From positions 248,001 through 312,000 of the forward strand of contig CP011265.1 in NCBI GenBank assembly GCA_000972765.1: a DNA stretch of 64,000 bases, written 5' to 3'. The notes under the pieces are model-generated. The model ran no database searches. It had not been told where the DNA came from and worked only from the letters and a program-made list of their open reading frames with translations. The first letter of the stretch is position 1; the number at the start of each line of letters is the position of its first letter. The position numbers and the translations under genes are program-made. Positions 7,482 through 28,110 of the stretch are shown piece after piece. This DNA comes from Verrucomicrobia bacterium IMCC26134. GTDB lineage: Bacteria; Verrucomicrobiota; Verrucomicrobiia; Opitutales; Opitutaceae.

Positions 7482-7961
7482 TTAGGGCGACTTATCTTCC
7501 TCTTGCGAAATACGGCCGATGTAGGCGGTGAAATCAGGGTCCTCGCCACGCAGCAAGGCGGGCAGGTGTTCGCGGAAATCCGGACGCCGGCACCATTCGC
7601 GCATGTAGTCCTCCCAGGAACGCCAAAGGCGCGCGGCTTGAGCGTCCATTTTATCTTCATAAACGAGGATGTAGGCGCGCTCAAAGAGGGCGACTAGTAT
7701 CTCGAACAACACGCTGCGACGTTCGATCTGCTCGGGCGTGAGCGGAGCGCCCGGGGAATTGCGGGTCGTGAGCTGAAGGTCGGCATTTTTAAGCACCAGC
7801 TCAAGAAATTCCGAGTATTGGTCGGAGAGTTGAACATAGACCTCCTCTTCCTCGTTTTGACGCTCTTTGCGCTGCTCTTTTATAAAAGCAAAAATACCGA
7901 AAGGCAGTCCAATGATGGTGACCAGGTAACTGAGCGCTTCGAGCCATTCCATCATGGTCAT
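7482..7961 (-). CDS. Small membrane-anchored protein of unknown function
   Basis: I do not recognise this protein of about 159 residues. It has one N-terminal transmembrane helix (LSYLVTIIGLPFGIFAFI), a basic/acidic coiled-coil segment (KEQRKERQNEEEEVY) and a helical, probably cytoplasmic domain with many Trp and Glu residues, ending in an acidic tail. That layout suits a small membrane-tethered scaffold or sensor, but this is inference. The frame is open back to a TTG at 8036 that overlaps the stop of the CoA-transferase gene; I prefer the ATG at 7961 (or 7955/7952), just ahead of the helix. It probably shares a transcript with the CoA-transferase. Confidence 0.6.
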   Translation of the reverse strand: MTMMEWLEALSYLVTIIGLPFGIFAFIKEQRKERQNEEEEVYVQLSDQYSEFLELVLKNADLQLTTRNSPGAPLTPEQIERRSVLFEILVALFERAYILVYEDKMDAQAARLWRSWEDYMREWCRRPDFREHLPALLRGEDPDFTAYIGRISQEEDKSP

Positions 7962-8032
7962 GGTATCAAGATGCCGCCTAATGAAGCTGCGGGCGAGAGG
8001 AAAGGATTCCGTCGGATTCGCGCGGTTTGCGG

Positions 8033-9526
8033 TCAACCGGGCCAGACGACGCCGCGCATATCACCAGTCTTGTTGAAGCGTTGGTGAAAGGCGAAGGCGT
8101 AATCGAAGTTGAAGGGTTCGTGTCCGTCACGGGAAAGAGCCAGATAACGGCGCAAGTCGGCGCGGAAATCAGGGTGGGCGCAGCGCTCGATGATGAGCTC
8201 GGCGCGCTGGAAGGGATCGAGGCGGCGCAGGTCGGCGACGCCGTGTTCGGTGACGATGACCTGAACGGAGTGTTCACTGTGATCGGTATGGGTCACTTGG
8301 GGCACGATGGTGCTGATTTTCCCGCTCTTTTGGAGCGAGGGGCAGGTGAAGATGGAGAGGTGCGCGTTACGGGTGAAATCTCCCGAGCCGCCGATTCCGT
8401 TCATCATGGTTTTGCCGAAGAGGTGCGTGCTGTTGATGTTGCCCTGAAGATCGGCCTCGATAGCTGTATTCACGGAAATGATGCCGATGCGGCGCACGAT
8501 CTCGGGGTTATTGGTGATTTCCTGCGGGCGGAGCACAATGCGACCGCGCAACGCGGAGAGGTCTTCGTAGAGCGAGCGCATGGCGGGCGGGCTGAGGGTA
8601 AGCGAGCAACCGCTGGCGAACTTGAGTTTGCCGCTGCGCAAGAGAGCAAGAGTCGCGTCCTGCAATACCTCGGAATACATGGTGAAGCGAGGAATCTCGG
8701 GGTGGGCGCCTAGCGCGCCAAGCACGGCATTGGCGATGTCTCCCACGCCGGACTGAAGCGGAAGGAACTCAGGGGGGATGCGGCCGGCGCGAAGCTCGGC
8801 GGCCAGAAAGTCGGCGACGTTTTCACCTATCTTGGTGGTGACCGCGTCCGGTTCGGCGAAAGCCCCGATCTCGTCTTCGCGGTTGGTGAGGACAACGCCG
8901 GCGATCTTCGCGGGGTCGAGCTGCAGCCAGGGCTGGCCGATGCGGTCGGATACGTTGTAGAGCGGGATTTCTCCGCGGTAGGGCGGATCAATGGGCTCGT
9001 AGATATCATGTATGCCACAAAGCGAGGCGGGGTGACGCTGGTTGAGCTCGATGAGAATACGTTCGCCGCAGCGCGCGAACGTCGGGGCGGCGCCGACGCC
9101 GCTGGTGAGGACGACACGGCCATCGGCGGTGATATCGCAGGCCTCGAGCACAGTCCAATGAATGGGACCGAGTGCGCCAGTGCGGACATGTTGCGGAAGC
9201 TGGCTGAGGTGAAGATCGAAGAAGCGGGTTTTACCGGCGTTGATGGCGCGACGCAGATCAGGATCGGATTGGTAGGGAGTTCGGAAACTGATCGCCTCCG
9301 CCTTGGCGAGGGCACCGTCGAGGGATGCTCCAGTGGAGGCGCCGGTAATGACCCCGATCTGGAAAGGGCGCCCGGCAGCATGTTCGGCCATGGCCCTCCC
9401 GGCGATGGCGGTGGGGATATCCTTGGGGGATCCCGAAGGCGTAAAGCCGCCAAAAGCGACTGTGTTGCCGTGATGAATCAAAGCGGCGGCCTCCTGGGCG
9501 TTAATGATTGGGAAAGGATGCGGCAT
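8033..9526 (-). CDS. Acetyl-CoA hydrolase / succinyl-CoA:acetate CoA-transferase
   Basis: A 497-residue cytoplasmic enzyme of the class I CoA-transferase group that includes AarC/SCACT and yeast Ach1. Members move CoA between succinate and acetate or hydrolyse acetyl-CoA. The active-site glutamate is most likely Glu286 in MYSEVLQD. The glycine-rich GIGGSGDFTRNA stretch and VTEHGVADLRRLDP near the C-terminus are typical of the family, and the length matches full-length members. A role in acetate use or overflow beside the TCA cycle is likely; class I fumarase is encoded some 4 kb away but not in the same operon. Confidence 0.9.
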   Translation of the reverse strand: MPHPFPIINAQEAAALIHHGNTVAFGGFTPSGSPKDIPTAIAGRAMAEHAAGRPFQIGVITGASTGASLDGALAKAEAISFRTPYQSDPDLRRAINAGKTRFFDLHLSQLPQHVRTGALGPIHWTVLEACDITADGRVVLTSGVGAAPTFARCGERILIELNQRHPASLCGIHDIYEPIDPPYRGEIPLYNVSDRIGQPWLQLDPAKIAGVVLTNREDEIGAFAEPDAVTTKIGENVADFLAAELRAGRIPPEFLPLQSGVGDIANAVLGALGAHPEIPRFTMYSEVLQDATLALLRSGKLKFASGCSLTLSPPAMRSLYEDLSALRGRIVLRPQEITNNPEIVRRIGIISVNTAIEADLQGNINSTHLFGKTMMNGIGGSGDFTRNAHLSIFTCPSLQKSGKISTIVPQVTHTDHSEHSVQVIVTEHGVADLRRLDPFQRAELIIERCAHPDFRADLRRYLALSRDGHEPFNFDYAFAFHQRFNKTGDMRGVVWPG

Positions 9527-9675
9527 GGAAGTGAGTCGATCAGTTGGTCAGTCGTAGCCTGATCAGATTAAAACATAAGCGCCGGACGGGCTATGCATTT
9601 GTTGCTCACCGAGGGGCATAAAAAAGCCCGCCCGCTGAGCCCTCGCATAAATTTGGCGCAAGCGCCCGACCGAAC

Positions 9676-10290
9676 TCACCACAGGCCGCTCACAAAACCC
9701 GCAAAGGCTTTGATCGCGAACACGCCGGCGTTCTTTGTGAGGTGCGCGGCAAAACAAGGAAGCAGGGAGCGGTTCGGATTCCACGTGGCGAAACGACAGG
9801 CGTAAAACCAGAGTGATCCAGCCAGCACGGCGGCGAAACTAAACCATCCTTTGGCCGTCAGCGTGAATGCGAAACCGTCGTCGTCCCACTTCCAGAGAAA
9901 GGGGTGCAGCAGGGCGAACAGGACTGAGGCACCGACGATGCCTCCGAGCAGTGCGGAGCGCCCACGTTTATCCACCACCAGAAAGCCGCGAAAAATAATC
10001 TCTTCAATGAAGGCGGCGACCAGGGTGTAGAGGCCAAAAAGCACCGTGATCTCTGATTGTTCAGCGTCGATACCGAGTGCGATCTCTCCAAACGTTTCGG
10101 CGGCGAGGATTACGCCTGCGCCAAGGGCGGCGATGAGGACTGCGCGCATGCCGGCCGGAGTGGATCCGGGAAACATGGGATTAGCCACCGGAGTCCCGGA
10201 GCGGGCGGCGGTAAAATCCGTCCACCACAGGTGTGTCACATATACACCGGTGGCGATCAGAACCAGCAGCAGCAAGGGGTTTTCGTTCAT
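9676..10290 (-). CDS. CPBP-family intramembrane metalloprotease (Abi/Rce1-like)
   Basis: A 204-residue polytopic membrane protein with all three family motifs in order: EEIIFRG at residues 96-102 (EExxxR), FALLH ending at His129, and HLTKN at 183-187 (HxxxN). These place glutamates and histidines as metal ligands within membrane helices, as in Rce1-type proteases. The start at 10290 puts MNENPLLLLVLIATGVY directly before the first helix; an upstream ATG at 10353 would add a poor N-terminus. It diverges from the polyprenyl synthase gene, with about 150 bases between them to hold both promoters. The substrate is unknown; bacterial members have been tied to bacteriocin self-immunity and protein maturation. 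Confidence 0.85.
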   Translation of the reverse strand: MNENPLLLLVLIATGVYVTHLWWTDFTAARSGTPVANPMFPGSTPAGMRAVLIAALGAGVILAAETFGEIALGIDAEQSEITVLFGLYTLVAAFIEEIIFRGFLVVDKRGRSALLGGIVGASVLFALLHPFLWKWDDDGFAFTLTAKGWFSFAAVLAGSLWFYACRFATWNPNRSLLPCFAAHLTKNAGVFAIKAFAGFVSGLW

Positions 10291-17634: not shown

Positions 17635-18807
17635 ATGCCCCAGACCTCCCGCCGAACCTCCGTCTTCACCGAGTCGCTTATCCGCGAAATGTCTCGCGTC
17701 GCGGCCAAGCACGGCGCGATCAACCTCGCGCAAGGATTCCCGGACGGCGATCCGCCGGCTGCGCTCGTTCAGGCCGCCAAAGATGCGATGGACGCTGGGC
17801 GCCATCAATACGCCGTGACGTGGGGATCGCCCGAACTGCGCGAAGCACTCGCGGCCAAACTCACCCGCTGCACCGGCGCACCGGTGGATGCGCAAAGCGA
17901 ATTGGTGATCACCTGCGGAGGCACCGAGGCGATGCTGGCTGCGGTGATGACGGTATGCGACCCCGGTGATCGCATCGGCATGTTCTCGCCTTTTTATGAG
18001 AACTATAATGCCGACGCCATCCTGAGCGGCGCCATTTCAATCCATGTTCCGCTGCACCCGCCTGGCTACGGCTTCGATCCGACGGAATTGCGCGCTGCCT
18101 TTTCCACCGGAGGGGGACTGAAGGCGTTCATACTCTGCAATCCATCCAATCCGTGCGGGCGGGTTTTCACCCGCGCCGAACTGCTTCAGCTTGCGGCGCT
18201 CGCGGAGGAGTTCGATACCTTCATTATCACCGACGAGGTCTACGAACATCTGGTGTTTGACGGTCGCGAGCACGTCTATTTCAGCACGCTGCCGGGCATG
18301 GCAGCGCGCACCATCTCATGCTCGTCCCTGTCGAAGACGTTCTCGATCACGGGTTGGCGTCTCGGTTACCTGCATGCCGCGCCGAACATCATCGCACAGG
18401 CGCGCAAAGTGCATGATTTTCTGACCATAGGAGCAGCGGCCCCGCTGCAACACGCGGTGGTGACGGCATTGGGCTGGGGGCCTGATTACTACAAGTCACT
18501 CGCGGCGGAATATCAGGCGCGCCGGGATCTGCTGCTTGGCTATTTAAGCGAGACAGGGCTGAGCTACTCGAAACCTGAGGGCGCCTATTTTGTGATGCTC
18601 GATGTGACGCCGCTGGGTTTCTCCAGCGATGTGGATTGCGCGCACTGGATGACTGAGCATATCGGCGTGGCGCCGGTGCCAGGGTCCTCGTTCTTTCCGT
18701 ATCCGGAGAATCGTTACGTGAGATTGAACTTTGCCAAAAGCCAGCCGGTGTTGCGCGCGGCGGGAGAGCGACTGAGCTGTTTGCGAGCAGGACGAGGCAG
18801 CGTCTAG
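17635..18807 (+). CDS. Pyridoxal-phosphate aminotransferase, class I/II
   Basis: A 390-residue fold-type I aminotransferase. The Schiff-base lysine is Lys234 in SSLSKTFSITGWRLGY, preceded by NPSNPCGRVFT and ITDEVYEHLVFDG, the usual cofactor-binding elements. The N-terminus INLAQGFPDGDPP and the C-terminal YVRLNFAKS resemble the methionine/kynurenine/glutamine aminotransferase group (YbdL, KAT type) more than aspartate aminotransferase. The amino donor cannot be settled by eye. Its TAG stop overlaps, within a CTAG, the TAG stop of the convergent gene downstream. It starts 25 bases after the LysM lipoprotein and may be co-transcribed with it. Confidence 0.88.
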   Translation: MPQTSRRTSVFTESLIREMSRVAAKHGAINLAQGFPDGDPPAALVQAAKDAMDAGRHQYAVTWGSPELREALAAKLTRCTGAPVDAQSELVITCGGTEAMLAAVMTVCDPGDRIGMFSPFYENYNADAILSGAISIHVPLHPPGYGFDPTELRAAFSTGGGLKAFILCNPSNPCGRVFTRAELLQLAALAEEFDTFIITDEVYEHLVFDGREHVYFSTLPGMAARTISCSSLSKTFSITGWRLGYLHAAPNIIAQARKVHDFLTIGAAAPLQHAVVTALGWGPDYYKSLAAEYQARRDLLLGYLSETGLSYSKPEGAYFVMLDVTPLGFSSDVDCAHWMTEHIGVAPVPGSSFFPYPENRYVRLNFAKSQPVLRAAGERLSCLRAGRGSV

Positions 18808-20792
18808 CGGTGATCGTCGATAAATACGGCGTGGGTGAGGGGAAAGATTGGCCGGCCGAGTCGATTGGAACTAATGTCCTCGAATTGGAGCCCGATGAGG
18901 AAATCCCGTGAAATAAATTCTAAAAAATCCCTCCTGACCATCATCAAACAACGACCTGGAGTGCGTGCAGTGACCGCTGCGGTGGAGGTGCTGCTTTGAA
19001 GTAGGCTGATCTCTCCAAAAAAATCTCCTGATTTAAGAATGGCTACCTCGCGCCCTGCCTTTTCGACACCTATCTCACCTTCATAAACAACATGGAAAAA
19101 CTGGTTGGTGTCTCCATGAACAACGAGTTGTTCCCCGGCTTGAAATTCACGAAAGGTGGAACGCTTGGCGAATGCTGAGATCGCCGCTGAGCTCCAGTTG
19201 CTTGAAAGCGGTATACGTTTAAGGAAGGCGACTTTCTGGACTGCCGTTTCGACCGCGTCGCGTGAGAGTCTAGATATCACCAATGCGTCGAATTCCCTTT
19301 TGCTGAGGGAAAGTAATAAGCTGGGTGCGGTGCAGCGCACCGTGCGGGTGCGCAGCCCTCCGCTCAGCAGTGCTATCTCGCCGAAAATATCCCCTTTGGA
19401 CAAATTAGCCACAGTCTCTAATGCCCCAGAAGGCGCTTTGCGCAGCACTTCCACCGCACCGCCATGAATTAGGTAGAGTTTTTCGCCAGGTTCGCCTTCT
19501 CGTATGATAATGTCTCCGGCGGAATACGACTCCGGCTTGAGTCTACCAACCAGAGACGAAAGATCTGCGGGTGACAGATCCCGGAATAGCACCTGCTCGG
19601 CGAGCGACTTCGTGATGACGTCCGTATCGACAAGCGGGATTTCATGCTGGTGTTCCTTGCGTTTCTTTCGCCGAGAACGCTGCCATTGCATCATAAACTG
19701 AAAGCTAATTGATAAGCCCAGTCCGATCGCGCCAAGAACCAACCCGCCCATCGCGCAGAGCAGCACGATGGCAGTGAAGCGAAGATTGCCGCTATTATTA
19801 AAGGCTTCAACCAACTCCCAGGCGTTGGCACCGAGTAAAGTGCTTCCCGTAAGAAAAACCAGAAGCAGCCATACGATGGTATACCCGCCACAAGTGAGCA
19901 GGAAGCGCTTATCTTTGATTTTTAATCGGGCCATCAACATCAACGCAGGCGATTGTTTATGGGTGAAGATGATATTGCCCGAAGTATCCAACAGGGGATC
20001 GCGGTAGAGGGCGCGCAACAAAGCCATGAGCGGTGTATGGCCCAACGGGGCGAGCTGATACATCAACCCGAGCAATATGGGGAATAAAACACCGGGCAGG
20101 TAAATGGAGGTGATGAATGCGACTCCGAAGTGCGGCGCGAGTCGTGCGAGCGCTACGTTGATCTCGTCTGAAAGCGTAAGCATCATGGTGTCGTCTAGAT
20201 CGACCACAAAGTGCGGCGTGAGGGTGCGGTTGGTCCACCGTGGAGAGTAAATCACGCCTCCCGCTCCGCTCAGGGTGGAGGCGGCAAAAGAATAGCCTAT
20301 GCTTGTGGTGAGACACACCAGTGCCCAGCCTATCAATAAATCCCATGCGTGAGTGGGGAGAACCATTGGTCGGAGCGTGATGAACACGCTGGCGAAACCG
20401 AAGGCCATCAGGGATAGAAAGAGCACCGGCGTGGCATGGAATCGTCCGTGCCACGGGGCGGGCGGAACGGTCGGCGGCAAGTTCCGCCCTGCAGTCTGAA
20501 GTATGCCGGTATCCACCGCCTTTATTAATAATTCATAGTATTCAGCTAATGGCAGGCTTTGCCGGTTGGAAATCAGTTCGCATAACACGTCGGGCGCGCG
20601 ACGCGCGGTGTGAAAACATTGAAGCACCCCCCACTGTTCTGGTGTCACCATCAGATGGGTGCGACCTGATCTGTATTTTATGGCGACTCTATTCACCCTC
20701 ACCCGGCTTACGTGTAACTCAGTCGAGAGCTTGAGCACGCTGGTGGTGAGCAGCGCTTTCTGTTCGGGTGTGAGTTCGGACGGAGCGGTCAT
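18804..20792 (-). CDS. Membrane protein with degenerate M50-like core and two cyclic-nucleotide-binding domains
   Basis: A 662-residue protein. Residues 1-115 form a small helical domain like that preceding 'peptide zinc metalloprotease' membrane proteins. About five transmembrane helices follow (roughly 125-400). The region SIGYSFAAS to HFVVDLDDTMMLTLSDEI aligns by eye with the M50 stretch that normally reads HExxH then YVDVSDAW, but no HExxH is present. Two cNMP-binding domains lie near 400-515 and 525-640. The first has a full phosphate cassette, FGEIALLSGGLRTRTV; the second, FGEISLLQSSTSTAAV, lacks the cassette arginine. It may be a cyclic-nucleotide-gated, proteolytically dead membrane regulator (inference). 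Confidence 0.65.
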   Translation of the reverse strand: MTAPSELTPEQKALLTTSVLKLSTELHVSRVRVNRVAIKYRSGRTHLMVTPEQWGVLQCFHTARRAPDVLCELISNRQSLPLAEYYELLIKAVDTGILQTAGRNLPPTVPPAPWHGRFHATPVLFLSLMAFGFASVFITLRPMVLPTHAWDLLIGWALVCLTTSIGYSFAASTLSGAGGVIYSPRWTNRTLTPHFVVDLDDTMMLTLSDEINVALARLAPHFGVAFITSIYLPGVLFPILLGLMYQLAPLGHTPLMALLRALYRDPLLDTSGNIIFTHKQSPALMLMARLKIKDKRFLLTCGGYTIVWLLLVFLTGSTLLGANAWELVEAFNNSGNLRFTAIVLLCAMGGLVLGAIGLGLSISFQFMMQWQRSRRKKRKEHQHEIPLVDTDVITKSLAEQVLFRDLSPADLSSLVGRLKPESYSAGDIIIREGEPGEKLYLIHGGAVEVLRKAPSGALETVANLSKGDIFGEIALLSGGLRTRTVRCTAPSLLLSLSKREFDALVISRLSRDAVETAVQKVAFLKRIPLSSNWSSAAISAFAKRSTFREFQAGEQLVVHGDTNQFFHVVYEGEIGVEKAGREVAILKSGDFFGEISLLQSSTSTAAVTARTPGRCLMMVRRDFLEFISRDFLIGLQFEDISSNRLGRPIFPLTHAVFIDDHR

Positions 20793-21137: not shown

Positions 21138-23042
21138 CTACCAGTTAGACATGGCGTTATTCACTTCGACGAGATGGTTGGTGCCGTCGGTTCGGGTCTC
21201 GACGCGGAGGTGGCGGGCATGGACGGCGCGCAGGGTGCTGCGATGGGCGATGGTGAGGATGGCGACGCCCGGGAGTGTCTCGCGCAAGGCCACGTAGAAA
21301 GCGCGCTCCGCGGCCTCGTCCATCGCCGAGGTGGCCTCGTCCAGCATGAGCCAGTCTGGCCGTTGCAGGTAAATGCGGGCGAGTGCGATGCGTTGTTGTT
21401 CGCCTCCGGAGAGTTGTTGCGACCAGTGAGCCTCCTCATCCAGTCGCGAGAAGGGGGAGGGCAACTGCGCAAATTCGAGAGCGGCGTGAATGGTCTCGGT
21501 CGAAAAAGCGTCGGGAGGCGATGGGTAGCAGAGTGCCGCACGGAGAGAACCGATGGGCAGATACGGTTTTTGCGGCATTACCATGCAGCGGAATGGATCA
21601 GGCAGATGAACCCGCCCCGCTTCGTAAGGCCAGAGACCGGCGAGGGCGCGAAGCAGGGTGCTTTTACCGCAGCCTGATGGTCCGGTAATCAGAACGGAGT
21701 CGCCCGGAGCGAGGTGAAAATCCAGCGGGTTGAGCAAGGCCGAACCATCGGGACGAAAGAGGGCCAGACCCTCGGCCGATAGATCCGCACCCGCCAGTCC
21801 GCTGTCATAAAGGAGGAGCTGGCTGTCGCGCAATTGACGCGAATGCTCGATGCCGCGGGTAAAACCATCAAGGCGCTGGGCGATGGCCCACCAGTTGGCT
21901 ATGGTCTCGAAGCTGTTGACGAAAAAGTTAAGACTGCTCTGAACCCGTCCGAACGCGCCCGTGAGCTGGGTAAGCTGTCCGAGACTGATACCGCCGGCAA
22001 AAAAACGCGGTGCGGAAAGGAGAAGGGGAACGACGTCGGACAGGCGAAAGTAAACCGCCTTGAATGCGTTCAGATGGATCTGACGGATGAGGGTGGCGTT
22101 GAAGTTGCCTACGATGCGTGAAAAACTGGCGCCCAAGGTGCGGCGCTCGGCTGGTTCGCCTTCGATCAGGGCGGTGCTCTCGCTGTTCTCACGCAGCCGG
22201 ATCAGCCCGAATCGGAAATCAGCTTCCAGTTTTTGCTGCTCGTAGTTGAGTCCAATAATGGGGCGTCCGACGCGACCGACCAGCCAGGTGCCGAAGAAAG
22301 AGTAGAGAATGCAAAACCAGACCAGGTGGCCGGGTATGGACGTGAGAAATGCGGTCGCGGTTTCATAGCCGGTCCAGAGCGTGCCGACCAGAGGAGCAAG
22401 CATCGAATACTGTTCCGGGACCTGGGGCAGGATCAGGGGTAGCGAAGTCTTAGCGGTGGCGGCGCTACCGTCCGACAGCATCCAAAGGATGACGACAAAA
22501 GACCCCAGACCAGAGAGAGCCCCGAAAAGCCCCATGAAAAGATCGAGGGTGGTGAAACAAAAAGAGCGTATATCCTCGCTGATGCGCTGGTCTGGATTGT
22601 CACCCTGATGACCGTTGAGTTGTCCAAGATAGTGGGCGCGATCGCCGAGCCATTTTTCGAGAAAACGGGTCGTCATCCAGCGCCTCCAACGGATTTTCAA
22701 CGATGAAAAAAGATAATCCTCCGCGAGCCAGAAAGTGATCGAGCAAAAGATAAGCCCGAGCATGGAGACGCCGAGTTGCACGAAGTTACCGTAGTCACCG
22801 CGCTGGATGGTGTCGAAAAAGGAGCGGTTCCAATAGGATAGTTTAACCCCTACCCAGGTCTGGGCGAGTGAGAGCACAACCACGGCCGCCAGGAGCAGTC
22901 TGGCGCTCCATTTTTCCGTCGAGCTCCAGAAGGGCCGTGCCAGCGCCAGAAACAAACGGACCTTCGACGAAAATGAAACGGGGCTGGGCACGGTCAGAGC
23001 GGAACTAAACGGGCGGATAAGGACAATCCGAGATTCCACCAA
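21138..23042 (-). CDS. ABC transporter with fused permease and ATPase, SbmA/BacA-like (YddA type)
   Basis: A 634-residue inner-membrane protein of the ABC_membrane_2 family, related to YddA, Rv1819c and the peroxisomal ABCD transporters. The permease half has LSYWNRSFFDTIQRGDYGNF and the EDIRSF segment typical of SbmA/BacA proteins, which take up peptides, cobalamin or long-chain acyl compounds. The ATPase half shows Walker A GPSGCGKSTLL, signature LSGGEQQRIALAR and Walker B WLMLDEATSAMDE, all intact. The first in-frame starts are TTG at 23042 and GTG just after, so the exact N-terminus is uncertain. Substrate unknown. It is on the opposite strand to the chaperone operon and diverges from it over about 70 bases. 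Confidence 0.85.
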   Translation of the reverse strand: MVESRIVLIRPFSSALTVPSPVSFSSKVRLFLALARPFWSSTEKWSARLLLAAVVVLSLAQTWVGVKLSYWNRSFFDTIQRGDYGNFVQLGVSMLGLIFCSITFWLAEDYLFSSLKIRWRRWMTTRFLEKWLGDRAHYLGQLNGHQGDNPDQRISEDIRSFCFTTLDLFMGLFGALSGLGSFVVILWMLSDGSAATAKTSLPLILPQVPEQYSMLAPLVGTLWTGYETATAFLTSIPGHLVWFCILYSFFGTWLVGRVGRPIIGLNYEQQKLEADFRFGLIRLRENSESTALIEGEPAERRTLGASFSRIVGNFNATLIRQIHLNAFKAVYFRLSDVVPLLLSAPRFFAGGISLGQLTQLTGAFGRVQSSLNFFVNSFETIANWWAIAQRLDGFTRGIEHSRQLRDSQLLLYDSGLAGADLSAEGLALFRPDGSALLNPLDFHLAPGDSVLITGPSGCGKSTLLRALAGLWPYEAGRVHLPDPFRCMVMPQKPYLPIGSLRAALCYPSPPDAFSTETIHAALEFAQLPSPFSRLDEEAHWSQQLSGGEQQRIALARIYLQRPDWLMLDEATSAMDEAAERAFYVALRETLPGVAILTIAHRSTLRAVHARHLRVETRTDGTNHLVEVNNAMSNW

Positions 23043-23115: not shown

Positions 23116-25106
23116 ATGGCCTTTTTTCCTTTGAAACGGTATCCTCAGGTGGCCTCCAAATTTGACGAACTGCTCAGCGCATGCGCGCACCCCGACCTGT
23201 ATCGCCGCAACGGCTTCAGGACACTGGGACTCGCCTTGCCTGCCGACCCCCGTGGAATCGCCAGGCGTTTTGACGCTCTGGGCATCGAGCTCGAACTCGG
23301 AACCGTGTCCGAAATGTGGGCCTTCGCTCCACAGCCGCCTGATCGCGAAAGCCTGCGTGCGGCGGCACGTGCGCTCCAGGAGCCGATGCGCCGTCTCTTG
23401 GATGAACTGTTTTGGTTCTGGCCGCTGAGTTATCCGGAGGCGGGACCGGACGTGGCGCTTTCTCATCTTGCACGAGGCGACACCGCCGCCGCGACACAGG
23501 AATGGAGCGAGGCCGCCGGACGCGGCGATACTGCGGCCTGGCATAATCTGGCGGTCTACCAACATCTGCTGGCACTCGAGTGGGAACTGGCCGCCGAACA
23601 CGATTCCGCGACCCTGAATCAATTGTGGCGCGAAGCGGCGGACTATTGGCAGCGAGTGCAAGCCGACGACCGGTTTTGGCAAATCCTCCAGGCGCGCATC
23701 GAAGCGATTGATGACGCTCAGCTGCCCGCTTCAGCGGCAGCTCGTCTTAAAATAGTCCTGCCGGAGATTTTAGCCCGTATACAAACGGAAAACACGGTTA
23801 ACTATGTGGCAAGAGAGGACGCCCAGACTGCCCGTTTACATGTTCGGATCGCCCAGTCGCACCTGCCCTCCGCCCGTCTTGCCGACATAGTGGAAGCCAC
23901 TGCACAACCAGCTTTGGCCAGGCTGGAAAACCATGTGGCCCAAGCGCGACGTCACGCCTCCGCGCATCCCGCCGGCGCACTCGTCCCGTTGCGGGCCTTG
24001 TTACAGGCTGTCGCGCCTGATCTGGCCTTGCTCGAGATCCTGGCCTCCGCACCCGGAACCGCCCACCTGTATGGCGACCAAGTCCGCCTCGTGCCGACAC
24101 GGTGCTCGACGGCCTCGTCGCCTGCCAGCGAGTCACTGGCGATGACCTTGGGTGCCTGCCCTTGTTGTTTCATCTGCTCGATATCGCATCGGCACCGGAA
24201 TTGGCTCAACGCACTGCACAAGCCTTCGGTGTCATGCTGGAGAACGCCCTTGTCGCCGCACGAATCTCGGCAGGGGAACCGATACCGCCCGACCACGTGC
24301 TGACGCTCAGATTGATCACACGCTCCATCTCGGCGGGGCTGGGCTCGCTGGGTCTCACCAATGCAGCCACCGTCGCAACCCAAGCCCGTCTCGCCGGATG
24401 GCTTGAAAAACTCGCCGAAGAAGCTCTGGTGCTCTCTCCCTCGAATCTTGGCTGGGCATTGCACACGCTCGGCCATGCCCTGGACCTTCCAATCGACGCC
24501 GCGAACCGCGAAGCTCTTGTCCGGATTCAGGCCGAGTGGCTATTCACCGCCCCTGCGCCTTCTTTGCAGCCCTTTGTTCTGATCGCAGGCCTAAACAACC
24601 TGCGCATCGATGCCAGCGGGGTTACCTTAAACAACAAACTTTTGCGCACCGCTGATTTTATCGGTATTCGTCACCAAATGGCCGGTTTTTCAGGCGAGAT
24701 TCCGCAGACTATCGGCTGGTGCTCGTCAGACGAGGGGTTCGAGTTGGACGAAGCGTGGTTCGCCGCCTTGAAGGGTATGATGAATCCTGCGACTGCGGCG
24801 CGTAATATCCTGGCCGCATTACACGCTTTCCTCGTGCCTTCTCTCTTGGCACGCACTATCGAGGCGGTTCGCGGCGGAGGGGTGATTACCATGGGCGAGT
24901 CCCGGCTCAGCGCAGAAGGTCTGGCGCTCACTGAGGGCGGACGCCTGCTGCCTTTTGCGCGGCTGCGGCTTGCCTACGCACCGGAGCGTGTGAGCATATC
25001 ATCCGCCGACCATCCTTCACTCACGATCGATCTCGATCCACTGTTGAACTGGAATGTTGTTCTGCTTCCTCATTTCATCGCCGCATTTACCCCGCGCCTC
25101 CCCTGA
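23116..25106 (+). pseudogene. Chaperone-operon protein of about 663 residues interrupted by a one-base frameshift
   Basis: Two overlapping frames read as one protein. The first (from ATG 23116) is sensible up to LYGDQVRLVP and then turns into Cys/Ser/Arg-rich nonsense. The second carries on sensibly from DTVLDGLVACQRVTGDDLG to the stop at 25104-25106. Restoring one base near 24094-24096 (CCGAC to CCGGAC) joins them into exactly 663 codons. The N-terminus, LYRRNGFRTLGLALPADPRGIARR, recalls the start of J-domain-like modules, but no HPD motif follows. Helical repeats come next and a beta-rich end. The stop overlaps the next start (TGATG). Either a recent mutation or a sequence error; function unknown, likely a partner of the Hsp70 downstream. 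Confidence 0.7.
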
Positions 25107-25585
25107 TGTCCTCCACGCTATTGCAGCAGCTTTTGGCCCGTGACCCGCGCAAGCTGGCGCATTTCCCGGAGCCGCCGCTCGATCGGGCCCTCTCCGACTG
25201 GCATCGCCTCCTCAACACCCCGCCGGCGCCGAATCCCGCCAGCGCCGCACCCGCTCCCGAGCTAGGACAGGCCTATGCCGAGCTCGCGACTCACGTCTGG
25301 CGCACCCGCCACCGCCTGTCCGACGCCCCGCCCGATTTGCTCCGCAGGGCACTCCGCCATCTCGACGGCGCAACCGAGACTCTCCGCCAGCTGGACGTAA
25401 CCTCCAAGGATTGGCTGAACGAGCCCTATGACCCCGGCCTGCCTCTCAAGGTCATCGCCTTCCAGCCCAGTCCCGGTTTGGTGCGCGACACCATCATCGA
25501 GGTCGTCCGCCCGGCGGTCTACTGGCAAAACCGTCTCGTGCAATCCGGCGAGGTTGTCGTTGGACGTTCTGGCGTCGATTCCTGA
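25106..25585 (+). CDS. Short GrpE-like protein, putative nucleotide-exchange partner of the downstream Hsp70
   Basis: A 159-residue protein whose ATG overlaps the preceding stop and which ends 17 bases before the Hsp70 gene. The first two thirds are helical and Pro/Ala-rich (LGQAYAELATHVWRTRHRLS, LLRRALRHLDGATETLRQL). The end, DTIIEVVRPAVYWQNRLVQ then SGEVVVGR, resembles the GrpE beta domain, which usually reads like VVEVLQKGYRLHDRVLRPAMVVV. GrpE drives ADP release from DnaK-type chaperones, so the context fits. The resemblance is only a motif match by eye over some 27 residues, and the long N-terminal GrpE helix is shorter or absent. I would call it divergent and unproven. Confidence 0.5.
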   Translation: MSSTLLQQLLARDPRKLAHFPEPPLDRALSDWHRLLNTPPAPNPASAAPAPELGQAYAELATHVWRTRHRLSDAPPDLLRRALRHLDGATETLRQLDVTSKDWLNEPYDPGLPLKVIAFQPSPGLVRDTIIEVVRPAVYWQNRLVQSGEVVVGRSGVDS

Positions 25586-25602
25586 ACGTAATTTACCTGC
25601 AC

Positions 25603-28110
25603 ATGCTTCGAACCACCATTGATTACGGCATCGACCTTGGCACCACCAACTCCGCCATCGCGCTCGCCACGGGTCCGAGCACCGAGATCATCAAAAACAA
25701 CCTCGACGCTGATACCACGCCCTCGGCCGTTCATATCAATCGCACCGGAAATCTATGGGTCGGCCAGAGCGCCCGTTCCAAGCTCGCTGACGAACGCGCC
25801 GAGCACGATGTGCATATCGAATTCAAGCGACGGATGGGCACCGCCCACGAACACCTGTTTCGCTCCAGCGGCCGCAAATTGCTGCCTGAGGATCTTTCCG
25901 CCGAAATACTCAAGTCACTCCGCGCCGACGTCGCCCAGAAACGCGGCGAAGATATCACCGCCGCCGTGCTCACCGTGCCCGCCGCCTTCGGCCTGCACCA
26001 GTGCGAAGCCACCAAGTGCGCCGCCGCCCTCGCTGGTTTCACCACCGCTCCGCTTTTGCAGGAACCCATCGCAGCCGCGCTGGCCTACGGCTTCCAGAAA
26101 CACAACGCCAAGGCCTACTGGCTCGTCTTCGACTTTGGCGGCGGCACTTTCGACGCCGCCTTGGTTCGCTCCGATCAAGGCACCATGTCGGTCGTCAATC
26201 ACGCGGGGGATAATTTTCTCGGTGGCGCTGATATCGACTGGGCCATCGTCGAGCAGTTCATCGTCCCCAAAGTGCGCGAACAGTTTAAGGCCCCTGATTT
26301 CGGCCGCGGCCACGAGGCCAGTCGCTACGATCTCCTGCGTCTCAAGACCGCCGTCGAAGCCGCCAAGATCGAGCTTTCCCGCCAGAAATCCACCTGGCTG
26401 GAGGTCGATCTGCGCAGCCTGGGCGCCGGCTCCCATATCCTCGAACTCGAACTCACCCGCGAGAATATCGCCGCCGCCGCCGCCCCCAGCGTATTGCGGG
26501 CCGTGGACATCGCTCGCAGCGTCCTGACCTCGCAGGGTCTCGAACCCGCCGCTGTGGAGAAGCTCGTCTTCGTCGGCGGCCCCACGCTCGCTCCCTATTT
26601 CCGCGATCTCGTGGTGGAAAAATTACGCATACCCTTCGACCTCTCGGTCGATCCACTCACGGTGGTGGCGCGCGGCGCGGCGATTTTCGCCTCGGGCCAG
26701 CGCGTGATGTCTCCGGCTGAATCGGGGCCAAAACACGGAGGCACCGCGCCGGGTTTAGCCGCCTACAAAGTCGATCTGATATACAAACCCACCGGCACCG
26801 ATGCCGAGCCCCTGGTGGGCGGCAGGGTGACCTCGCCCGACTCCGCGCCTGTCACCGGTTGCAGCATCGAGTTTATCAACGCCGAGAATAAATGGCGTAG
26901 CGGCCGGCTCCCGCTCGCCGCCGACGGTTCCTTCCGTCTCAACCTGCGGGCCGAGCCGAATGTTCAAAACCATTTCAAAATCGAGCTGCACGACGTGCGG
27001 GGGGCATCGCGCCCGACTCAGCCCGCAGCGCTTCACTACACCATCGGCCTCGTGGTCGAGGAGCAGACGCTCATTCATAATCTTGGCGTAGCCCTCGCCG
27101 ACAACCAGGTGGCGGTGCACTTCCCCAAGGGCACCGGTCTGCCTGCCAAGTCCACCCGCACCTTCCGCACCACCGCGCCGCTCTCCCGCGATACCGCGGG
27201 CAGCCTCTTGCGCATCCCCGTGGTCGAGGGCGACCACCGTCTCGCCGACCGCAACTTCCTCATCGGCACGCTCGAGATCAGCGCCGGCCAGATCCACCGT
27301 GATCTGCCGCTGGCCACCGAGATCGAGGTAACCTTCCACATGGATTCCTCCCGCCTGCTTCAAGTGGTGGCTTACGTGCCGCTGCTTGACGAGGAGTTCC
27401 CTGCCAAACTCGAGCTGGGCGGCACCCATCGCCAGCCCGCCCTCGATGTCCTCCAGGCCGAGCTCGCCCGCGAGATTGAGCGAGTGGCCGTGCTTCGCGC
27501 CAATCTGGGCGATGGCTCCGATGCCGCCGATACTGAAGCCGTTTCTGCCCTCGAAAAATCTCCCGGACGCGCCCACCTCGAACGCGTGCTTCACACCGGC
27601 GCGCCCGATTTCGACACCCTGCTCAAGGCCGAGCACCAATTGCTTGAGTTCAAACTCGCTCTCGACGAGGTGGCGGAACGCCTCGCCTGGCCCACCGCGA
27701 TTCGCGATACCAAGCGACTCTTCGACGAGCTCGACAAGCTCGCCCGCGCCCACGGCGAGGAATCCGAGAAGGCGCGCGCACGCTCCCTCGGAACCGAGCT
27801 TCAGACCGCCATCGCCAACAAGCAGCCCGACCGCCTGCGTAAAAAGACCGAGGAGCTCACCGCCCTGCACGAGAGCATCCTCTACCGTCAGCCGGATTTT
27901 TGGAAAAAACACTTCGCCGCGCTGGTTGAATGTCGCGACCAGATGTCCAACCCCGCCCGCGCCGGCGTGCTTATCAAGTCCGGTTGCGATGCCCTCGCCA
28001 CCGGCAATCACGACTCTCTGGTCGACACCGCCCTGCTGCTTCAGGATCTGCTTCCGGCGCAGGTCGTCGTGGCCGCACGACGCGGCTACGGTTCCAGCCT
28101 GCTCGCTTGA
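25603..28110 (+). CDS. Hsp70-family chaperone with an extra beta-rich segment
   Basis: An 835-residue Hsp70, much longer than DnaK (about 640). The ATPase domain, residues 1 to about 380, has phosphate loop 1 GIDLGTTNSAIAL, EPIAAALAYGF, phosphate loop 2 VFDFGGGTFDAALV and VFVGGPTLAPYFRDL. The canonical linker (DVTPLSLG) is replaced. A segment of about 100 residues (near 390-500) looks like a carboxypeptidase-regulatory or Ig-like beta sandwich (EPLVGGRVTSPDSAPVTGCS, LAADGSFRLNLRA). A substrate-binding-like beta domain (about 500-610) and a long helical lid follow. It is cytoplasmic. Together with the genes before and after it forms a dedicated chaperone set, distinct from the housekeeping DnaKJ-GrpE. 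Confidence 0.85.
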   Translation: MLRTTIDYGIDLGTTNSAIALATGPSTEIIKNNLDADTTPSAVHINRTGNLWVGQSARSKLADERAEHDVHIEFKRRMGTAHEHLFRSSGRKLLPEDLSAEILKSLRADVAQKRGEDITAAVLTVPAAFGLHQCEATKCAAALAGFTTAPLLQEPIAAALAYGFQKHNAKAYWLVFDFGGGTFDAALVRSDQGTMSVVNHAGDNFLGGADIDWAIVEQFIVPKVREQFKAPDFGRGHEASRYDLLRLKTAVEAAKIELSRQKSTWLEVDLRSLGAGSHILELELTRENIAAAAAPSVLRAVDIARSVLTSQGLEPAAVEKLVFVGGPTLAPYFRDLVVEKLRIPFDLSVDPLTVVARGAAIFASGQRVMSPAESGPKHGGTAPGLAAYKVDLIYKPTGTDAEPLVGGRVTSPDSAPVTGCSIEFINAENKWRSGRLPLAADGSFRLNLRAEPNVQNHFKIELHDVRGASRPTQPAALHYTIGLVVEEQTLIHNLGVALADNQVAVHFPKGTGLPAKSTRTFRTTAPLSRDTAGSLLRIPVVEGDHRLADRNFLIGTLEISAGQIHRDLPLATEIEVTFHMDSSRLLQVVAYVPLLDEEFPAKLELGGTHRQPALDVLQAELAREIERVAVLRANLGDGSDAADTEAVSALEKSPGRAHLERVLHTGAPDFDTLLKAEHQLLEFKLALDEVAERLAWPTAIRDTKRLFDELDKLARAHGEESEKARARSLGTELQTAIANKQPDRLRKKTEELTALHESILYRQPDFWKKHFAALVECRDQMSNPARAGVLIKSGCDALATGNHDSLVDTALLLQDLLPAQVVVAARRGYGSSLLA

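Follow-up and report, generated by a model that had tools for sequence, protein, structure and literature searches.

What is a membrane protease homologue kept for once its catalytic residues are gone? The question is raised by a gene of Verrucomicrobia bacterium IMCC26134, which lies in the 64,000-nucleotide stretch of contig CP011265.1 from position 248,001 to 312,000 (hereafter the window). The gene, at window positions 18804..20792, is an intact open reading frame (ORF) that begins with ATG and encodes 662 amino acids on the minus strand with zero internal stops; the plus strand of the same interval is full of stops. A preliminary description of this DNA had given exactly these coordinates, to which the strand had to be added. 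From its N terminus the protein consists of a clamp resembling RRE (RiPP recognition element, where RiPP stands for ribosomally synthesized and post-translationally modified peptide) and PqqD domains, a membrane core of the M50 or site-2 protease (S2P) type without the zinc site, and two cyclic-nucleotide-binding (CNB) domains in tandem (Table 1). On balance we favor reading it as a membrane-bound regulatory switch, that is, a dead S2P homologue of the PqqD-M50 lineage that holds, and cannot cut, a client.

Relatives were drawn from two samples. Fifty-seven related genomes hold 21 full-length family matches in 17 genomes, and a scan of a named-genome collection, confined to the best 80 of 458 relatives, gave 68 loci (L033-L100) with 66 full-length ORFs, together with loci matching the CNB part only (L101-L112). 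Our alignment has 65 rows, namely the window protein and 64 of the 66 full-length ORFs, the close copies L035 and L086 being left out; loci L048, L055 and L090 contributed none of full length.

The three zinc ligands are absent in the 65 aligned sequences. By structural alignment (starting offset 120), H43, E44 and H47 of the active protease SpoIVFB fall on T163, S164 and Y167 of the window protein, in a register that could be off by as much as about 3 residues, as sequence alignments are shifted relative to the structural one. In no register does the window protein contain HExxH. Position 163 is never His and position 164 never Glu (0/65 each), and position 167 is His in 4/65. At the place of the third ligand, Asp occurs in 0/65 sequences at positions 253-255 and in 3/65 at position 252; P249, which marks the NP segment, is invariant. 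We found no HExxH in the window gene and the 19 relatives read beside it, a set of 20 ORFs that excludes L017 with its internal TAG. In the 66 full-length ORFs, which are partly the same genes, the string turns up twice, both times off the catalytic helix: in CNB-A of L070 and in the third-ligand segment of one L075 copy. The latter, HELVH, was considered as a revived site and rejected, as it sits at about window-protein position 256. We also searched 288 genomes of the phylum with a profile of the core, scoring at most six candidates per genome. Sixteen genomes matched with an E no worse than 0.01, and 13 of these, the own genome included, held strong hits (14 in total, E 9.2e-70 or lower). 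None of the 14 ORFs contains HExxH, and this search turned up no relative that combines HExxH with a CNB tail. The preliminary description had reported HExxH missing from an M50-like core, which holds for the window gene and for all 65 rows; a mis-aligned motif is not the reason, since no homologue read has the zinc motif at the catalytic position.

The membrane core is under purifying selection. Among 19 pairs of relatives at 80-98% identity, 16 of which are listed, the ratio of non-synonymous to synonymous substitution rates (dN/dS) of the core lies between 0.06 and 0.23 in 15 of the 16; the exception, L082/L084, has a ratio of 0.70 at a dS of only about 0.03. One might suppose that the protein is still a protease, using another metal site or a non-zinc mechanism, and three acidic residues in or beside the hairpin that follows the second membrane helix are indeed well conserved (D201 in 64/65, D198 in 50/65, E180 in 49/65). 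However, D198 and D201 align with a YVDxxD segment that is present in HExxH-bearing relatives too, so that they are not new ligands, and throughout residues 100-329 His and Cys stay below 39 of 65 sequences at every position. We consider continued proteolysis most improbable.

Is the core truly an S2P by descent? A family profile built from residues 1-395 (67 rows) was compared by hhalign with HExxH-bearing proteins of the same phylum that carry a similar clamp before an M50 core. A first comparison gave 92.7%, and one with 41 reference proteins gave 95.5% (score 75.5, E 1.5e-8 for one comparison). The match is colinear over residues 2-367, spanning clamp and core, and includes the GGEV, P...VD..D and N/A-P segments. 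Reference profiles comprised 41 of 43 PqqD-M50 loci after an HExxH filter, 29 of 29 RseP-type, 28 of 30 rhomboid and 30 of 30 CPBP loci. Controls scored far lower: at most 23.3 for 75 unrelated membrane ORFs taken as single sequences, 13.7 and 22.3 for two neighbor-family profiles, 14.9 for the reversed reference, 20.3 for the best of 20 column shuffles, 13.3 for the rhomboid profile and 22.8 for the CPBP profile. For scale, RseP-type S2Ps, which are known relatives, reach 66.7 (93.1%) when set against this reference.

The structural comparison points, modestly, the same way. AlphaFold2 modeled residues 1-385 with a mean predicted local distance difference test score (pLDDT) of 90.0 and a predicted template modeling score (pTM) of 0.84 (87.8 and 0.82 at full length). 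The top 50 of a Foldseek search with the full-length model consisted entirely of CNB domains, for which reason the N-terminal part received a model of its own. With VIA-align, which re-aligns Foldseek's own candidates, SpoIVFB and mjS2P were the highest-Z natural membrane proteins for the core, at modest values: Z 6.8 for residues 147-267 on SpoIVFB 8vjl (3.5 A, 114 residues), 7.0 on SpoIVFB 8vjm (9.5 A, 181 residues) and 6.3 on mjS2P (7.1 A, 165 residues). In the model, a helix (149-176) is followed by two strands (182-187 and 194-198) and a further helix (207-231). The succession is that of S2Ps as the excerpted source (PMC11486902) gives it for SpoIVFB, in which the HExxH helix comes first, then the re-entrant hairpin and then the third helix. 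Lys and Arg are concentrated in the linker 369-389 (seven) and the loop 251-294 (six), with one each in the loops 141-148 and 320-338. This distribution fits a cytosolic clamp and cytosolic CNB domains, and both termini of the membrane core are probably cytosolic.

Several observations weigh against this kinship, and some of them speak for the view that the core is unrelated to S2Ps and shares with them a helix arrangement, and with the clamp-bearing M50 proteins a clamp domain. The membrane core alone gives only 54.4% (score 42.8) against the clamp-M50 reference, and when 17 M50 relatives are used as single sequences their scores run from 18.6 to 36.2, with four below the best unrelated control of 23.3. 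Compared directly with RseP-type S2Ps, the family reaches 0.2% (score 16.5), so that the S2P link runs through the clamp-bearing M50 family. The PqqD label of that reference family is itself weak (PF05402 at a sub-threshold E of 0.22). No M50 or PqqD family is found by Pfam or NCBIfam in the 65 N-terminal parts (0/65), nor is PF05402 in particular at E 1 in Pfam (0/65). A profile search of PDB sequences returned no S2P or RRE, and no S2P is among the Foldseek top 50 for the model of residues 1-385, in which residues 271-385 are less confident (block means 66-90). Finally, VIA-align guidance treats Z below 8, or below about 13 for helical bundles, as a possibly common arrangement. Against an unrelated core stand the colinearity of clamp and core with its shared segments, the much lower profile controls and the rank of S2Ps among natural membrane proteins, and we find such an origin very unlikely. 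The core is thus, with high probability, a pseudo-S2P of PqqD-M50 descent. The preliminary description had suspected an inactive S2P-like core from the landmarks around the missing site; the profile comparison supports the M50 link, and the predicted fold shows a modest likeness to M50 structures. That a conserved lineage of S2P homologues has lost the catalytic motif is a statement exactly as certain as the S2P link on which it depends. Best hits of plain family searches and PDB-sequence searches (PsaK, designed trefoils, SLATT and similar) were judged to be chance. PF02163 matched none of the 65 family members at E 1 in Pfam. The HEFGH-bearing relative in the own genome scored 24.1 bits against this family in one scan, where the cut-off is 27.2, and passed the cut-off with its neighboring stretches in another (30.5 bits).

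The N-terminal domain, residues 10-108, superposes on RRE/PqqD peptide clamps with Z 10.6 for TigE (3.2 A over 97 residues), 8.2 for MccB and 6.5 for PqqD, which supports an earlier guess of a PqqD-like part. In the AlphaFold2 model the clamp has strands at 26-32, 35-40 and 45-49 and helices at 51-61, 66-75 and 82-94, the third helix bearing the conserved Y86 (61/65), E87 (61/65) and K91 (62/65). In 14 of the 16 listed pairs dN/dS is lower for the clamp than for the core. One may ask whether the protein handles peptides, its clamp and dead M50 core binding and delivering a small peptide (a RiPP-like precursor or a secretion substrate) with the CNB domains as an on/off switch. The closest folds of the clamp are RiPP leader-binding domains, and RREs bind peptides in the cleft between beta3 and alpha3 according to the excerpt of PMC12710340, alpha3 corresponding in order to the helix with the three conserved residues; the strong constraint on the clamp is in line with this. 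The clamp-M50 relative in the own genome also has an HlyD_3 match over the cut-off and lies near an ORF that, read by eye, looks TolC-like. Yet nothing among the best 25 neighbor clusters resembles a modifying enzyme or a precursor (clustering covered ORFs of 70 amino acids or more, so that true precursors could escape), and small ORFs in the 5' gap of the window gene have no distinguishing marks. We hold peptide handling to be unlikely, and a regulatory switch that holds a client remains our preferred reading.

The C-terminal half is the only part of the 662-residue protein recognized by Pfam, with two PF00027 stretches (E 3.3e-38; 130 bits against a cut-off of 27.5) and no other family at E 1. 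Phosphate cassettes that bind cyclic nucleotides carry a Glu plus an Arg. CNB-A has an intact cassette, FGEIALLSGGLRT, in which both Glu472 and Arg481 are present; CNB-B keeps the Glu in FGEISLLQSSTST and has no Arg. The preliminary description had likewise counted one domain with a full cassette and one without. Cassette residues of CNB-A match cGMP-dependent kinase in the alignment, the domain aligns with those of HCN and SthK, and residues 389-635 have the tandem CNB domains of PKA/PKG among their best matches in the PDB. Judging from these residues, CNB-A is likely to bind a cyclic nucleotide, which would put the core under cyclic nucleotide control. A full CNB-B cassette occurs in only one of the 65 rows. 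The FGEI.LLQNS segment is nonetheless mostly kept (G593 65/65, E594 62/65, Q599 54/65, N600 48/65, S601 54/65), which suggests that it is maintained for another role, perhaps in packing or dimerization. The own genome has two matches to the cyclase family PF00211.

A CNB domain that aligns with HCN and SthK, placed behind about six membrane helices, also recalls a cyclic-nucleotide-gated channel or transporter of the SthK/CNG kind. Neither Pfam nor NCBIfam finds a channel family, the clamp and the hairpin point to PqqD-M50, and no CNG/HCN channel appears in the 50 VIA-align rows for residues 1-385, an absence that excludes nothing; a channel is, in our estimate, a very improbable identity for the core.

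How is the switch set in relatives whose sensor has decayed? The CNB-A cassette is intact in 24 of the 65 rows and degraded in the other 41. Counting a gene for a CheY-like receiver when it lies on the same strand and at most 1.5 kb upstream, none of the 24 intact rows has one, and 37 of the 41 degraded rows have one directly upstream (four do not). Of the 66 full-length family ORFs, 38 are preceded by such a gene (for example L066:7536-7961, L070:3282-3698 and L073:7530-7979), with a gap of at most 30 bp in 36 of the 38 and a median of 12.5 bp (count over 64 of the 66). Frames span 141-274 codons in 36 of 38, the others being L098 (446) and L100 (711), and in the 26 aligned receivers the Asp pair, the DV.MP aspartate, SG and KPF are conserved at the 80% level. 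When neighboring genes were clustered, the receivers formed a cluster present at 34 loci, 26 of its 35 members lying directly upstream on the same strand. The receiver gene beside relatives with a decayed sensor suggests a membrane regulator with exchangeable input; this branch is new relative to the preliminary description. Both types can occur in one genome, NC_groundwater_2007 (JACRQG01) having L047 with an intact cassette and L071 with a receiver gene, and L066 and L079 are two receiver-plus-family pairs on a single contig, QQNC01000036.1. Among the receiver-less loci, the sequence upstream of the gene is just 1.06-1.32 kb long in L037, L038 and L041, and eight loci without an upstream receiver hold receiver-domain ORFs elsewhere, on the opposite strand.

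One point detracts from the two-branch picture. On the core tree, cassette and receiver labels need three changes each, so that one large clade and some small events describe a subfamily pattern, not a replicated correlation; an independent-pairs test on this tree had too few pairs. Beyond the receivers, the next largest neighbor clusters, both branches pooled, cover at most eight loci, which counts against the client-holding switch at large. Cassette loss showed no link with cyclase loss, as all 17 genomes with full-length family members keep at least one PF00211 match. An exchangeable-input family of pseudoproteases, set by cyclic nucleotide through CNB-A in one branch and by the adjoining phosphorylatable receiver in the other, is put forward tentatively.

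How might such a switch work? According to the excerpted source (PMC11486902), the substrate of SpoIVFB is held in two ways, through strand addition and through contacts with the linker that leads to the C-terminal domain. Our family retains a hairpin at the S2P location as well as a linker to the domains at the C terminus, and has lost the cutting residues; the reading we prefer is a dead S2P kept for binding. In the cytosol, the RRE-like clamp would grip a peptide segment of the client, and the S2P-like core with its re-entrant hairpin would hold the client's membrane segment. In the full model a single helix, 339-379, runs from the last membrane helix toward CNB-A, and is a plausible path for ligand-driven movement; cAMP or cGMP on CNB-A may move this joining helix to the CNB tandem, and the movement may tighten or release the hold on the client. 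Block means of only 67-77 along this helix count against such coupling. In the sister branch without the cassette, the adjoining receiver protein would supply the switch. That the protein holds a client, rather than using the fold in some other way, is a proposal to which we give somewhat less than even weight.

The family is of the PqqD-M50 superfamily by descent and stands outside the active S2Ps. Among the systems it resembles are the PqqD-M50-HlyD proteins, which also have an N-terminal clamp and then an M50 core; these keep HExxH and the DG aspartate, whereas in the window family the zinc site is gone and a CNB tandem forms the end. The example in the own genome (L031:7786-9957; 3707785-3709956) has HEFGH and ends in an HlyD-type domain, its PqqD label deriving from a sub-threshold Pfam match and from its alignment with the family. 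Other large ORFs surround it, one with a LEDRVLLSA-like stretch, and by eye the region looks like a secretion system. By its model, the window protein would share with SpoIVFB and mjS2P a re-entrant hairpin of beta strands behind the second membrane helix and a last membrane helix that leads to a cytosolic regulatory domain, and it would work as S2Ps of the SpoIVFB type do, apart from the cutting. In contrast, SpoIVFB has H43, E44, H47 and D137 and a CBS domain (mjS2P too has a C-terminal CBS), and the window family has no zinc ligands and has clamp and CNB domains added. Tandem CNB domains of PKA/PKG are kinase regulators; the order of CNB-A and CNB-B is the same in the window protein, but there the cassette of CNB-B has no arginine and a membrane core is attached to CNB-A. 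Pseudoproteases are already known as regulators among rhomboids, where the iRhoms are animal proteins. These are alike in concept, being described in the excerpt of PMC3149277 as dead intramembrane proteases that regulate clients, but they have a rhomboid fold. EGY3, a chloroplast S2P pseudoprotease and the nearest kind described, resembles the window family, by description only, as an S2P homologue without a working site; the excerpted text, from 2022, names it the only S2P-family pseudoenzyme, restricts it to plants, calls its role poorly understood and mentions no CNB domain (PMC9355673).

Coordinates of the gene and its parts are given in Table 1.

Table 1. Features of the pseudo-S2P gene; positions are those of the window
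Feature	Residues	Position	Strand	Basis or content
Whole gene		18804..20792	(-)	662 aa: RRE/PqqD-like clamp, pseudo-site-2-protease membrane core, tandem cyclic-nucleotide-binding domains
RRE/PqqD-like clamp	10-108	20469..20765	(-)	VIA-align to TigE, MccB, ThcOx, NisB, TbiB1, PqqD; third helix with Y86, E87, K91
S2P-type membrane core	112-385	19638..20459	(-)	about six membrane helices; AlphaFold2, VIA-align, hhalign, charge counts
HExxH place in second membrane helix (TSIGY)	163-167	20292..20306	(-)	offset to SpoIVFB H43/E44/H47
Two strands between second and third membrane helices	182-198	20199..20249	(-)	equivalent of S2P re-entrant hairpin
NPxxxxDG third-zinc-ligand place (APLGHTP)	248-254	20031..20051	(-)	alignments
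CNB-A	421-505	19278..19532	(-)	Pfam PF00027
Intact CNB-A phosphate-binding cassette, FGEIALLSGGLRT	470-482	19347..19385	(-)	alignment
CNB-B and C-terminal helices	546-645	18858..19157	(-)	Pfam (two stretches); limits from model
CNB-B cassette without arginine, FGEISLLQSSTST	592-604	18981..19019	(-)	alignment

Neither neighbor of the window gene is a conserved partner. Downstream lies a convergent aminotransferase gene, with a counterpart at E 1e-30 in one of the 68 loci around relatives (L033); 345 bp upstream lies a fused ABC transporter gene (21138-23042, minus strand; ABC_membrane_2/SbmA-BacA membrane part plus ATPase in Pfam), with no counterpart at that threshold in any of the 68. No ORF in window positions 16000-28000 matches the receiver profile. 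Adjoining the transporter on the plus strand (23116-28110) are a 395-amino-acid ORF without a Pfam match above cut-off and an 835-amino-acid ORF whose start, read by eye, resembles a DnaK-type ATPase. Elsewhere in the window, at about 9727-10050 on the minus strand, a 225-amino-acid frame matches the Rce1/CPBP-type intramembrane proteases (PF02517, E 3.1e-10).

Hosts of the family are mostly Opitutaceae, Opitutae and other Verrucomicrobiota, with a few metagenome-assembled genomes labeled Akkermansia and one Lentisphaerota contig (L075) that holds two copies in tandem. Two family genes are broken, by decay or assembly error: L048 is split into ORFs at 7893-8651 and 8871-9821, and L017 has the internal stop mentioned above.

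Within the open-licence part of PMC, we found nothing clearly relevant by title that joins S2P/M50 or PqqD with cyclic nucleotides, a possible exception being PMC10710835, a review of transporter regulation in which both kinds of term occur. With a conserved bacterial family of this kind, the purpose for which a dead S2P core is retained could be studied in a tractable system. Its division into two branches would, moreover, make its regulation testable by swapping inputs, and predicts a partner for each receiver protein.

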